From an uncultured Mailhella sp. (GTDB lineage Bacteria; Desulfobacterota; Desulfovibrionia; Desulfovibrionales; Desulfovibrionaceae), in NCBI GenBank assembly GCA_944324625.1, contig CALUWZ010000005.1, forward strand, positions 1-23,828: a DNA stretch of 23,828 nucleotides, in the 5' to 3' direction. Shown here piece after piece: positions 19,485-23,828 of this stretch. The notes beneath the pieces are model-generated. The model worked only from the letters and a program-made list of their open reading frames with translations. It did not search any database and had not been told where the DNA came from. Both the position numbers and the translations under genes were made by a program. The first letter of the stretch is position 1; every line of letters begins with the position of its first letter.

Positions 19485-20774
19485 TTATTTTTCATCGTTT
19501 TGTTTTGCGCTGTTTTTAAGTTTTGAGGCACAATACGCGATAATCATTCCCAAAACGCAGGGAATAATCCACACAAAGCCCACATCGGCCAGAGGAATTT
19601 TTTTCAGAAATTCAGTAATTCCCGTAAATCCCAAGGTTTGGGCGCCCACTTCAACAGTAATCGCTACAAGTGTTGCATAGGTTGCCGTTCTGAAAACCCA
19701 AACATTTTTCACGCCGAAAATATTTAACAAAATAAGAATGATTGTAACCGGATACAATATGCATAAGGCAGGAATGGAAAGCTTGATGATAAAATCAACG
19801 CCTCCGAGCGCCAAAACGCCCGAAAATACGGATATTATCAATGCCCACGCTTTATAGCTTATATTGGTGAACCGTGCAAACCAGTCGGCGGATATGGCAA
19901 CAAGGCCGACCGCAGTGGTAAAGCATGCGGCGGCAACGCAGATGCCGAAAGCAATTTTGCCTGCCGGGCCGAGGGTTACTTCCGCAAGGTACAGTGCGGA
20001 ACTTGTAGTTTCAAAGGTTCCCGCACCGCTGATTTTGGACCCCAAATACATGAGGCAGAAATAAATAACCCCGAGCCCCGCCGCAGCAATAAAAGCAGAA
20101 AAAAAAAAAAAAAATCTCTGTTCCCTTTCGTCTTTGATGCCTTTTCCTTCAAGGCCTTTGACAATAATTACGCCGAAAAGAACGGAAGCAAGGGCGTCCA
20201 TGGTCTGATATCCGTTTACAAAGCCCTGTGCGAAAACGCTTGTAACCTGCTTGTCAACAGGGGTGCCCAAATCGCCCGTAATCCCGAAAAAGGCAATGGC
20301 CGCCAAAATTGCAAGAAGTATGGGAGTGATGAATTTTCCTATGATATCGGTAAGCTTTGATTCTTTGATAACAATCAGATACGCCGCACCAAAAAACAGG
20401 GCGGAAGATATGACCGACAGCAAAAACGGATCGGTATTGGGAAAAGACGGAAGAACGCCCATTTCAAACGTGGTGGAACCCGTTCGCGGAATGGCAAAAA
20501 GCGGTCCGATCACAAGCACAAGTATGGTGCAGTAAAGCGTGTTGAAGCGGGCTGATATTTTTTTTGAAAAATCTTCAAGCCGTCCGACTTTGGTAAAAGC
20601 CAAAACGCCGAGCAGCGGCAGGCCGACGCCCGTCAGCAAAAATCCTATTCCTGCCAAAAACCAGTCCTTTCCCATGGCAATGCCCAAGGAAGGAGGGAAA
20701 ATAAGATTGCCTGCTCCAAAAAACATGGCAAACAACGCAAATCCTAAAATTACGGCTTCTTTTTTCTTGTTCAT
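19485..20774 (-). CDS. brnQ: branched-chain amino acid:cation symporter (LIVCS family)
   Basis: This 429-residue inner-membrane carrier imports leucine, isoleucine and valine with Na+ or H+. About twelve hydrophobic segments are present. The family N-terminus is clear: MNKKKEAVILGFALFAMFFGAGNLIFPPSLG, whose GAGNLIFPP is the LIVCS signature. Further landmarks are GFVNGYQTMDALASVLFGVIIV in the middle and LVAISADWFARFTNISYKAW in the second half. The frame is open to 20816, but the ATG at 20774 has GGGAG about eight bases upstream and the canonical N-terminus. A run of 16 T on the coding strand (20114-20099) encodes a phenylalanine stretch (RFFFFFSAF), and the gene is intact in this copy. It has its own terminator and promoter and stands alone. 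Confidence 0.95.
   Translation of the reverse strand: MNKKKEAVILGFALFAMFFGAGNLIFPPSLGIAMGKDWFLAGIGFLLTGVGLPLLGVLAFTKVGRLEDFSKKISARFNTLYCTILVLVIGPLFAIPRTGSTTFEMGVLPSFPNTDPFLLSVISSALFFGAAYLIVIKESKLTDIIGKFITPILLAILAAIAFFGITGDLGTPVDKQVTSVFAQGFVNGYQTMDALASVLFGVIIVKGLEGKGIKDEREQRFFFFFSAFIAAAGLGVIYFCLMYLGSKISGAGTFETTSSALYLAEVTLGPAGKIAFGICVAAACFTTAVGLVAISADWFARFTNISYKAWALIISVFSGVLALGGVDFIIKLSIPALCILYPVTIILILLNIFGVKNVWVFRTATYATLVAITVEVGAQTLGFTGITEFLKKIPLADVGFVWIIPCVLGMIIAYCASKLKNSAKQNDEK
20099..20114. repeat. 16-base A/T homopolymer inside brnQ
   Basis: Sixteen consecutive A on the plus strand lie in the coding region. Polymerase slippage by one base here would shift the frame of the BrnQ carrier at about residue 220. 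Confidence 0.95.
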
Positions 20775-21142: not shown

Positions 21143-21335
21143 CCAGCTTCTTTGAAAAATTTATAATTATAAAAATAAAGCTGTTCAAATTCATTCTTTG
21201 TGGTGGAGGCGGGGGAAATTTTCTTTTTGTTGTATTTATTTGATATTGTTTGAAATAAAAATTATTTTAAAATTTTTTTGCCATGGTTGTGTACACGCTA
21301 ATAAAAACTACATTTTTAACGCCTATAATATACAA

Positions 21336-22094
21336 TTATTTTTCTGTAATAATGTATGTTAATTCTTTTTTGTCATCAAATAAATATTGAAAACCACTTG
21401 ATAAAATAATTTCAACTTTATCATCTATGATAAGATATCTGTCATGTAATTTATCTTTATATGGTTTTATTTTTATTTTCTTATCAATAAGAGCAAAAGA
21501 CATATTCCCTGTACTTTCAGTATAAATCGTAATATCACATGTATCAAGACAATTTGCCTGTTTTAATAAATTTTGAATTTGAGTTAAAACTTTATGGCAA
21601 TATCTGTCTATTATTTCTATTTTATAAGCATGCTTCATTAAATTAATAAGATGTGCTTGCGCTATCTTTTTAGATTCAGATTTTTTAATTTTTTCTACAT
21701 ATGGAAATTGTGCAGTTAATTCATTAATATTAACTTCTTTTATTGTAGAATTTGCATTATATTGTTGAACTAATAAAATTTTATAGCAACTTTTTTCTAC
21801 TAACTTTTCCATTATTTCAGCTGAAAAAGGATTTTCCATAGAAAAATCTTGAAAATCCTCTTTCTTGGCAACAAACCAATATTCATTATTTAGCATTGCC
21901 TGAATTTTCATTGCATCAGGAAGTTTAGAAATTTTGGAATAATATTTTTCTAGTTGTTCTCTTGTTATATTAAAAGGTTTTAAAAATCTAAAAAGTTTGA
22001 GTTTTAAATCTTTATCAACGCTTTTTTTATCTTCATAAAAATCAAAAAAAGCTTCAACAAGTTTTTCCTCTAAAACGATATATCCCTTATCCAT
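21336..22094 (-). CDS. protein with C-terminal PLD-like HDR motif, third gene of putative defence operon
   Basis: This is a 252-residue protein with no family that I can name. The first 150 residues are mostly helical and lysine-rich. The C-terminal third has an alternating strand/helix pattern and the segment KLHDRYLIIDDKVEIILSSGF, starting at about 215, with His217-Asp218-Arg219. A single HD/HDR motif followed by a hydrophobic strand, then a Ser/Gly turn and another strand, is the layout of half a phospholipase-D-type active site. Such PLD-like domains occur in nuclease effectors and in the C-terminal domain of MIT proteins. Most PLD nucleases need two HxK motifs, which are not seen here; a dimer could supply them, or the domain may only bind. 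AGGGA lies about seven bases before the ATG. It begins nine bases after the ATPase stop, in the same AT-rich operon. Confidence 0.75.
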   Translation of the reverse strand: MDKGYIVLEEKLVEAFFDFYEDKKSVDKDLKLKLFRFLKPFNITREQLEKYYSKISKLPDAMKIQAMLNNEYWFVAKKEDFQDFSMENPFSAEIMEKLVEKSCYKILLVQQYNANSTIKEVNINELTAQFPYVEKIKKSESKKIAQAHLINLMKHAYKIEIIDRYCHKVLTQIQNLLKQANCLDTCDITIYTESTGNMSFALIDKKIKIKPYKDKLHDRYLIIDDKVEIILSSGFQYLFDDKKELTYIITEK

Positions 22095-22103
22095 GGCTTT
22101 CCC

Positions 22104-23129
22104 TTATAGCAATTCAAGATATTGCTTAGCTGTTGCATCAAAAAAGCCTGCAGGAAATTTACAATCATCTCCATTAGAATCTAAAAATCTGCCGCCTTTG
22201 CTTATGTTAATCTTTTTATACCCACTGTTTTCAAGATTGTTGTCTTTTTCTTTATAATAAATTGTTACATCTTCATTTGAAATTTCTTTTTTATAAACAT
22301 TGTAACAAAGCTTATAAATTAAATGCTCACAATGAGTTTCAATAATAACTCTAACGCCGGCATTAGCAACAAAAGCAAACAAATCAGCAAGTTTTGCCTG
22401 AGCTTTAGGGTGTAAATGAATTTCAGGGTTTTCAATTACTATTGTATCACCTATTTTACTAGATAAGCATGCAACTATAATTGAAAAAACAACACTTGAA
22501 CCAAAGCCGGTATTAAGAGATAAAAATTCTGAACCATCCTGATTTTTAAATTTCAATAAAACCAAATTAGCAATCTTTTCGGTTTTTATTTCTACGCCGA
22601 TAATTTCTTGCAACCAATAATTTACTTGAGCACCTAATGTAGTAGATTTCGTATTTGCACAAAGTTTATTGTCTAATTCTTCATATTTATTAATATCAAA
22701 AAAAGAAGGAGCAAATTGTCCGCGAACCCCAAAACTATTGTCAGTAGGTAAGGCATAAACATCCTGAGGACCTATTCTGTCAGCAGATAAAAAACGAATT
22801 TTACCTAAATTTTTTTCTAGTAATAATGCATGTACATTAAAAGAAAAAAAACTTTTATCCAATGCACAGATTTCCATTGCAGGTCTGTCATTTACTTGAC
22901 AAATAGCTTTATCTTCCGGTTTAGCATTAATATTTATAGGTGTCGGACAATATTTTTGTATGCATTCTTTTGTTTCATTGGATAAAATTTGCCAATGAGC
23001 TAAAAGGTATGCCTGTAATGCAGTAGATTTACCGCTGGAGTTTTCACCGGTAAAAATGGTTAATTGGTTTATATCAAGTTCTGCCTGTTCAACGCTTTTA
23101 AAATTTTTAATAATTAATTTTTCTGACAT
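22104..23129 (-). CDS. AAA/ABC-type ATPase (OLD/RecF-like, DUF3696-type C-terminus), putative defence component
   Basis: This is a 341-residue P-loop ATPase of the SMC/RecF/OLD-like class. The N-terminus LIIKNFKSVEQAELDINQLTIFTG leads to the Walker A motif GENSSGKST (28-36). The ABC-type signature region is LNTGFGSSVVFSIIVACL (205-222). Walker B is IVIENPEIHLHP (230-241), with Glu236 as the likely catalytic residue. The switch strand VIIETHCEHLI is at 261-271. The C-terminus ends in FPAGFFDATAKQYLELL, the pattern seen at the end of DUF3696-type ATPases. It is short for an OLD nuclease and has no Toprim domain, so nuclease activity would have to come from a partner. Its ATG overlaps the end of the DUF262 gene by 16 bases. 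Base composition is far more AT-rich than the left and centre of the window. Confidence 0.92.
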   Translation of the reverse strand: MSEKLIIKNFKSVEQAELDINQLTIFTGENSSGKSTALQAYLLAHWQILSNETKECIQKYCPTPININAKPEDKAICQVNDRPAMEICALDKSFFSFNVHALLLEKNLGKIRFLSADRIGPQDVYALPTDNSFGVRGQFAPSFFDINKYEELDNKLCANTKSTTLGAQVNYWLQEIIGVEIKTEKIANLVLLKFKNQDGSEFLSLNTGFGSSVVFSIIVACLSSKIGDTIVIENPEIHLHPKAQAKLADLFAFVANAGVRVIIETHCEHLIYKLCYNVYKKEISNEDVTIYYKEKDNNLENSGYKKINISKGGRFLDSNGDDCKFPAGFFDATAKQYLELL

Positions 23130-23828
23130 AATTCATTCTCTATTTCTATTAATGCATTTTTTAAATACTCAAAATGGGCAATCATTGTATTTTTGCCTTT
23201 TAATGATTCATCAAAGTTTTTTTGAATAAGCGGATCTTCAAAAATACTGTCAATTTTACTTTCTAAATATAAGATATTTTGTTCTGTTATATTTTTTATA
23301 TTAATAGAAGATAAAATAAACATTAATGATTCAAAAATGGTCATGTTAAATGGACCGGTTGCAACATGATTGCGAACGAATGCACCTTTTCCGTATAATG
23401 TTGTTGCAAGTTGAATGCTGAAATAAAAAAGTTTTTCTAACTCTTCTATGGTTTCATCGGAAAATTTATTGATAATTTTCATGGCAGAACCTAAAAATGC
23501 ATCAAAATCAGAAGTTAATTCCAAATTTTTTATTTGGTACTTATCCTGATTACCCCACAAATAAAATGCAAGGAAACGCAAAATAATATATCTGTCACGC
23601 ATTCTTTTAGAATCTATTCTTGTAGACAAAGAATTTTTAAATACATCAGATTCTGCTAATTCCTTTAAAAGTTTTGTAGACTTTCCAAGATACATAGCAT
23701 TGCGCATTTCTTGCTTATTTAAAGGAGATCCTCCGCTATTAATTCGTTCAAAAATATCAAGTTTTATTTTTTCAGGAGTCTTTGAATTAATTACATTTGC
23801 TTGAATTTGATATCGTTCAATTCTTGCT
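23114..23828 (-). CDS. DUF262-family protein (GmrSD/ParB-like nuclease family), 5' end outside the window
   Basis: The frame is open from the stop at 23114 to the window edge, giving at least 237 residues. The ATG at 23707 is an internal methionine, not the start. Translated upstream of it, the sequence reads through VINSKTPEKIKLDIFERIN, then SGGSPLNKQEMRNAMYLGK. The FERINSGGxPLNxQExRNAxYxG block is the hallmark of DUF262. These proteins carry a ParB/Srx-like NTPase/nuclease fold, seen in the modification-dependent restriction enzyme GmrSD and in many defence genes. The catalytic N-terminal part (the DGQQR-type motif expected in the family) lies outside the window. After the block come helical segments (DRYIILRFLAFYLWG, then ITEQNILYLESKID). 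The 16-base overlap with the ATPase gene indicates translational coupling. Confidence 0.9.
   Translation of the reverse strand, partial: ARIERYQIQANVINSKTPEKIKLDIFERINSGGSPLNKQEMRNAMYLGKSTKLLKELAESDVFKNSLSTRIDSKRMRDRYIILRFLAFYLWGNQDKYQIKNLELTSDFDAFLGSAMKIINKFSDETIEELEKLFYFSIQLATTLYGKGAFVRNHVATGPFNMTIFESLMFILSSINIKNITEQNILYLESKIDSIFEDPLIQKNFDESLKGKNTMIAHFEYLKNALIEIENELCQKN

Follow-up and report, generated by a model that had tools for sequence, protein, structure and literature searches.

A Menshen (NsnABC) operon with a PLD-like HxR domain in NsnC at a contig end of an uncultured Mailhella genome

The window analyzed here is the complete contig C5 (CALUWZ010000005.1, 23,828 bases) of the draft genome of an uncultured Mailhella sp. 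(GCA_944324625.1; 1.80 Mb in 237 contigs, 88.67% complete). Three minus-strand open reading frames (ORFs) at its right end, the first of which is open at the contig end, almost certainly constitute a Menshen operon of the subtype with a PLD-like HxR domain in NsnC (Table 1). Each of the three predicted proteins matched its own PADLOC-DB model. The NsnA piece in the window matched with an expect value (E) of 2.8e-55 (profile positions 156-382 of 385), whereas NsnB and NsnC matched over the length of their models (NsnB, E 5.7e-80, profile 3-343 of 345; NsnC model PDLC03880, E 5.9e-31, profile 3-240 of 242). We take the PADLOC names NsnA, NsnB, and NsnC to denote the Menshen anti-phage system. 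The genes follow the Menshen order nsnA-nsnB-nsnC on one strand and are tightly packed, with a 16-base overlap between the first two ORFs and a 9-base gap between the last two, in exact agreement with an earlier sequence-only reading of the window. That reading had described a defense operon, beside other defense genes, in which three genes encode a DUF262 protein, a Toprim-less ATPase of the OLD/RecF type, and a PLD-like protein with an HDR motif, a description that our analysis supports. Its remark that the region is AT-rich relative to the left and center of the window also agrees with the composition, as the trio stretch has a guanine-cytosine (GC) content of 27.6%, whereas 2.4-kb windows within positions 1-21000 have a median of 49.1% and do not fall below 41.8%. 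All three proteins, their order, spacing, and motifs resemble the Menshen models (PDLC03877, PDLC03878, and PDLC03880), with no substantive difference except a lower NsnC score. On the basis of this score, which lies below those of the tested full-length relatives (103-106 bits compared to 166-293 bits with the PADLOC NsnC model), the window NsnC is a diverged member.

The sequence-only reading had further suggested that the trio was not a named system and might be undescribed, its only basis being unfamiliarity with such a trio. This is practically excluded by the existence of a named model for each of the three genes in PADLOC-DB 2.0.0 (2023), the HDR-type NsnC being PDLC03880, and by the citation of Menshen in published surveys. 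The trio is therefore an already catalogued system and an ordinary finding rather than a new one. Protection against phage by Menshen and the requirement for its DUF262 gene are reported in PMC10952713. A literature search for the names NsnA, NsnB, and NsnC gave listed matches that were unrelated by title, and searches on MITD1, MIT_C, and DUF262 with HDR gave nothing on Menshen among the matches listed.

The incomplete nsnA gene is explained by a second contig. The earlier reading had asked for the sequence past position 23828 to recover the missing N-terminal part; C5 ends there, and the missing half was located on contig C203. The NsnA model matched two places in the genome, namely the piece in the window and the last 429 bases of C203 (profile 13-157, E 6.9e-50). 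The ORF on C203 is open to the last base, comprises 158 codons from a TTG with the first ATG seven codons in, and carries the sequence VVDGLQR, which contains the VDGxQR motif. The two halves abut when placed on relatives, as C203 ends in ...AQARI and C5 begins with ARIERYQ, where the Moritella protein reads LQARIEDCQ. The contig ends also have 10 identical bases in common, by itself modest evidence. Because of the profile positions and the alignment of the halves, nsnA was most likely cut by the assembly and is not broken. A decayed nsnA, which the earlier reading had named as a way in which its proposal could fail, was thus rejected, since both pieces are open-framed and join end to end on the profile and on relatives. 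That the whole locus is a decayed or non-functional Menshen remnant is likewise very unlikely: the window contains only part of nsnA, and a relative in the phylum looks like a remnant, but nsnB and nsnC are full length and the nsnA pieces together span profile positions 13-157 and 156-382 with open frames. In that relative (G184, locus L022), only 60 NsnC profile positions were matched and NsnA-like sequence was seen by eye in short separate ORFs.

The DUF262 label of the first protein is supported by the Pfam family GmrSD_N, which matched the C203 half with 64.1 bits, above the curated cut-off of 33.2, and the window half with 25.9 bits (E 1.3e-5), below it. A GmrSD type IV enzyme was considered and rejected on the basis that DUF1524 was not matched by Pfam in any of the three proteins. 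PD-T4-2 and GmrSD have a DUF262-type first protein in common with the trio (PD-T4-2_A, 8.3e-18; GmrSD_N); however, the PD-T4-2_A match is weaker than that of NsnA and the DUF1524 nuclease was not found in the trio.

For the second protein, Pfam identified AAA_15 (3.6e-21), AAA_21 (7.3e-18), and a weak DUF3696 match (0.0036). No Toprim family was listed for NsnB at E <= 1, the protein ending at 341 residues, and an OLD nuclease or Gabija GajA was rejected on this ground. The Walker A motif GxNxxGKS and the Walker-B-like ENPE are kept in a 15-sequence alignment of NsnB relatives. The earlier description of an ATPase with Walker A and B motifs and without Toprim holds, while its ABC signature was assessed by eye only.

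NsnB peptide patterns were scanned against one genome per species for 84,980 species, which returned 8 loci that are a sample shaped by the patterns. The order nsnA-nsnB-nsnC on one strand was found in all 8 genome loci fetched with NsnB, so that the conservation of the trio elsewhere, proposed earlier as a check, was borne out. By record title, these loci come from one Fibrobacter, four Bacteroidota, and three Gammaproteobacteria. NsnC was confirmed by PADLOC in all eight, and NsnA by PADLOC in the two loci tested (L002 and L004) and by phmmer to L004 in 8/8. Within the phylum, the NsnC model matched 7 of 395 genomes: the window's own, G252, G257, G184, G152, G220, and G221. NsnB and NsnC adjoin in G252 and G257, with an NsnA-like end recognized by eye, and the matches in G152, G220, and G221 are partial, those of G152 and G220 being PDC-S05 proteins when tested. 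Among 99 relatives, two were matched, the window's own genome and G084. Relatives of NsnB were found in 57 plasmid records (E <= 1e-5) and numbered 1746 in a large protein set; the protein search with NsnC gave six proteins including the query's own. NsnC had no match in phage records, and its matches in 26 plasmid records never covered 80% of the query, the best 20 of the 26 spanning residues 216-251 only. This sporadic presence together with plasmid carriage fits a mobile defense system.

The third protein required profile comparison, as Pfam gave nothing over cut-off on the window NsnC. The protein carries an HxR(x)4D motif (Table 1), and in the 18 HDR-type NsnC sequences both HDRY and a following SG[FIV] are present throughout. 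The PLD-like MIT_C domain is present in 10 of the 395 phylum genomes, nine of them over cut-off. A profile was built from seven of the ten domains, excluding L035 (frames without the domain), L037 (kept separate because it is a single sequence), and L038 (under cut-off and seemingly unrelated); the two members tested, L029 and L031, are BrxL. NsnC matched these seven MIT_C domains with 91.7% in hhalign (E 7.9e-7) over 92 columns including the HxR motif, and two PDC-S05 proteins with 93.1% (E 3.2e-7). As controls, six pairs with NsnA or NsnB gave at most 0.5%, 150 column shuffles of NsnC at most 2.3%, and reversed NsnC 0.07%. A relationship of the NsnC C terminus to the PLD-like MIT_C domain of some BrxL proteins is thereby supported at the profile level, and the earlier PLD-like HDR label stands if PLD-like is taken to mean the MIT_C family. 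The sequence set apart, L037 (genome G402), lies in a very long open frame of 1963 codons, which ends in an HDR domain with SGGLDHLFD at the end of a 645-codon open stretch on the minus strand.

Taken with the conserved motifs, these features suggest a mechanism that we hold with moderate confidence, in which NsnA would act as sensor, NsnB as switch, and NsnC as nuclease. NsnA would bind and hydrolyze nucleoside triphosphate (NTP) and sense some feature of invading DNA. The VDGxQR motif is kept nearly without exception in the rows of the NsnA alignment that cover it, and the corresponding D-G-Q-Q-R pocket of the DUF262 proteins GmrS, BrxU, and SspE binds and hydrolyzes NTP according to PMC10952713; use of NTP by the Mailhella NsnA is what we infer. 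NsnB, which is an ATPase of the OLD/ABC type and itself carries no nuclease domain, would switch on nucleotide binding and relay the signal, presumably within a complex. NsnC would then cut nucleic acid through its PLD-type H-x-R site. Because the trio lacks Toprim and DUF1524, this site stands out as the most obvious candidate active site, although one in NsnA is also possible, and NsnC is probably the nuclease effector.

Several observations weigh against this mechanism. The ENPE at the end of Walker B, found in 15/15 NsnB sequences (the window protein and 14 relatives), has Asn after the acidic residue, a position where a catalytic Glu is usual. The missing Glu places ATP hydrolysis by NsnB in doubt, and nucleotide binding may outweigh hydrolysis in importance for this protein. 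An intact HxK(x)4D pattern is absent from NsnC, the Lys being replaced by Arg in 18/18 HDR-type sequences, and the acidic position of the pattern varies (D in 11, E in 4, N in 3). Because of these two departures, catalysis by NsnC is at present unproven. Pfam MIT_C matched only 3 of the 18 NsnC proteins, all under cut-off (0.0003, 0.0042, and 0.011) and the window protein not among them, and the NsnC alignment gave no matches at E <= 10 when searched against PDB sequences. Although PDC-S05 and MIT_C both match NsnC, they match each other with only 0.2% in hhalign, and L037 as a single sequence matches NsnC with 75.4% and MIT_C with 2.5%, both of which speak against one connected family.

The substitution and the variable acidic residue would also suit a possible, though less probable, alternative within the same Menshen system, in which NsnC uses its HDR domain as a PLD-like module that binds nucleic acid, membrane, or protein without catalysis. 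NsnC would then serve as sensor or adaptor, and the damage would be done by NsnA itself or by a host enzyme that the system recruits. The Pfam family matched, MIT_C, takes its name from a domain in MIT proteins of eukaryotes, which binds membranes without cutting. Additionally, the HDR string is missing from the third protein of other Menshen loci, so the core may not need it. However, His and Arg are kept in all 18 sequences, as expected of an active site, and PMC12839542 states that the same Lys-to-Arg change in the BrxL domain "likely preserves its enzymatic activity". That paper also credits the HKD endonuclease in BrxL to a 2025 Menshen paper. On balance, the nuclease assignment of NsnC remains the reading we prefer.

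Menshen loci are not uniform in their third component. In the plasmid loci of Acinetobacter and Photobacterium, the NsnC proteins encoded after nsnA and nsnB match other PADLOC models (299 and 326 residues), and a Campylobacter peloridis plasmid carries HDR-type NsnC. Loci with the NsnC models PDLC03879 and PDLC03894 have NsnA and NsnB in common with the window locus, but their third protein of about 300 residues lacks the HDR string of the window NsnC. HDR and non-HDR NsnC showed no detectable profile match (0.5% in hhalign), although one side consisted of single sequences, so that this speaks only weakly for a difference. The title of the 2025 Menshen paper suggests that this variability is already in print. 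In comparison, BrxL with a C-terminal MIT_C/HKD-like domain (BREX type 1) has an H-x-R domain related to the NsnC C terminus but attached to an ATPase of a different family; a DUF262 partner was neither seen nor searched for. The PADLOC candidate PDC-S05 also has a C-terminal HDR domain that matches NsnC (NsnC model 4.5e-6 and 1.8e-5 for the two proteins), while its N-terminal part is different and the proteins occur here singly, NsnA and NsnB not being among the listed ORFs.

Table 1 Features of the Menshen locus and its flank in the window (contig C5, positions 1-23,828)
Feature	Position	Strand	Evidence
nsnA 3' part, 237 codons, DUF262/GmrSD_N family, runs off contig end	23114..23827	-	PADLOC NsnA 2.8e-55; 5' part on C203 (L013 2868-3341)
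nsnB, 341-residue OLD/ABC-type ATPase without Toprim	22104..23129	-	PADLOC NsnB 5.7e-80; Pfam AAA_15, AAA_21
NsnB Walker A GENSSGKST, residues 28-36	23022..23048	-	sequence; GxNxxGKS kept in 15-sequence alignment
NsnB Walker B region IVIENPEIHLHP	22407..22442	-	ENPE in 15/15 NsnB
nsnC, 252-residue third component, C-terminal PLD-like domain	21336..22094	-	PADLOC NsnC PDLC03880 5.9e-31; hhalign against MIT_C 91.7%, E 7.9e-7
NsnC motif H217-x-R219-x4-D224 (residues 217-224), HKD-like with Lys replaced by Arg	21423..21446	-	HDRY in 18/18 HDR-type NsnC
NsnC S233-G234-F235, after the HxR motif	21390..21398	-	SGF 14, SGI 3, SGV 1 (n = 18)
Last stretch in common with the G003 brnQ flank	21254..21304	.	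blastn 88.2% over 51 bases

Upstream of nsnA, C203 carries a type III restriction subunit gene (L013 1-2832; PADLOC REase_III 1.3e-251), which ends 35 bases before the TTG of nsnA and 56 bases before its first ATG. An overlap of 116 bases, 4 of them mismatched, links the first part of this gene to the end of contig C143. On C143 (L045 3-4495) lie genes for a type III methyltransferase (MTase_III 3e-200) and for a 203-residue protein without a PADLOC match, as well as the rear end of a gene for a Snf2-like helicase, for which the best PADLOC model was 'HKD+Snf2' (1.8e-77). The restriction gene has a GC content of 44% compared to 24-30% for the nsn genes, so the nsn cassette has a composition of its own.

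On the other side lies brnQ, a branched-chain amino acid transporter gene (19485-20774; Pfam 1.1e-110), of which a relative was found in three of the six genomes of the genus including the window's own. The flank in G003, a single-contig genome of the same genus, matches the window with 79% over 1.4 kb and a further 51 bases at 88% ending at 21304. Only 31 bases remain between this point and the nsnC stop, and the exchanged defense cargo starts there. Beyond the shared flank, G003 has hsdR, hsdS, PrrC, and hsdM (L039 2761-9693), with PrrC between hsdS and hsdM of a type I restriction-modification (R-M) system. The contig of G005 stops close to brnQ, and the comparison thus rests on two genomes, on which the brnQ flank is likely a defense hotspot in the genus. 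A run of 16 T (minus strand, 20099-20114) lies inside the window brnQ and could be slippage-prone or a sequencing artifact; the brnQ genes of G003 and G005 have no run of at least 8 T.

These neighborhoods raise the idea that HDR-type Menshen guards R-M systems, taking the place of the anticodon nuclease PrrC in type I loci and firing when a phage blocks the host restriction enzyme. The short distance between the type III restriction gene and the window trio, the nesting of the Moritella trio (L004 2509-10139) inside a type I R-M system, with hsdS on one side and hsdR on the other, and the presence of a type I system with PrrC at the brnQ site of G003 are in its favor. However, tblastn with 10 R-M and PrrC queries identified R-M relatives in only one of the eight genome loci (Moritella) and in none of three plasmid loci. 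We regard such a guard function as improbable; the data do not support a general association between Menshen and R-M systems, and ordinary clustering in defense islands is, on these counts, the simpler reading. The Moritella hsdR is split into two ORFs.

Three by-products of the analysis are small and are not claimed to be unpublished, namely the link of NsnC to the BrxL C-terminal domain and PDC-S05, the differing third gene, and the brnQ hotspot in the genus. The candidate novelty is closed, and the trio should carry the annotation Menshen.

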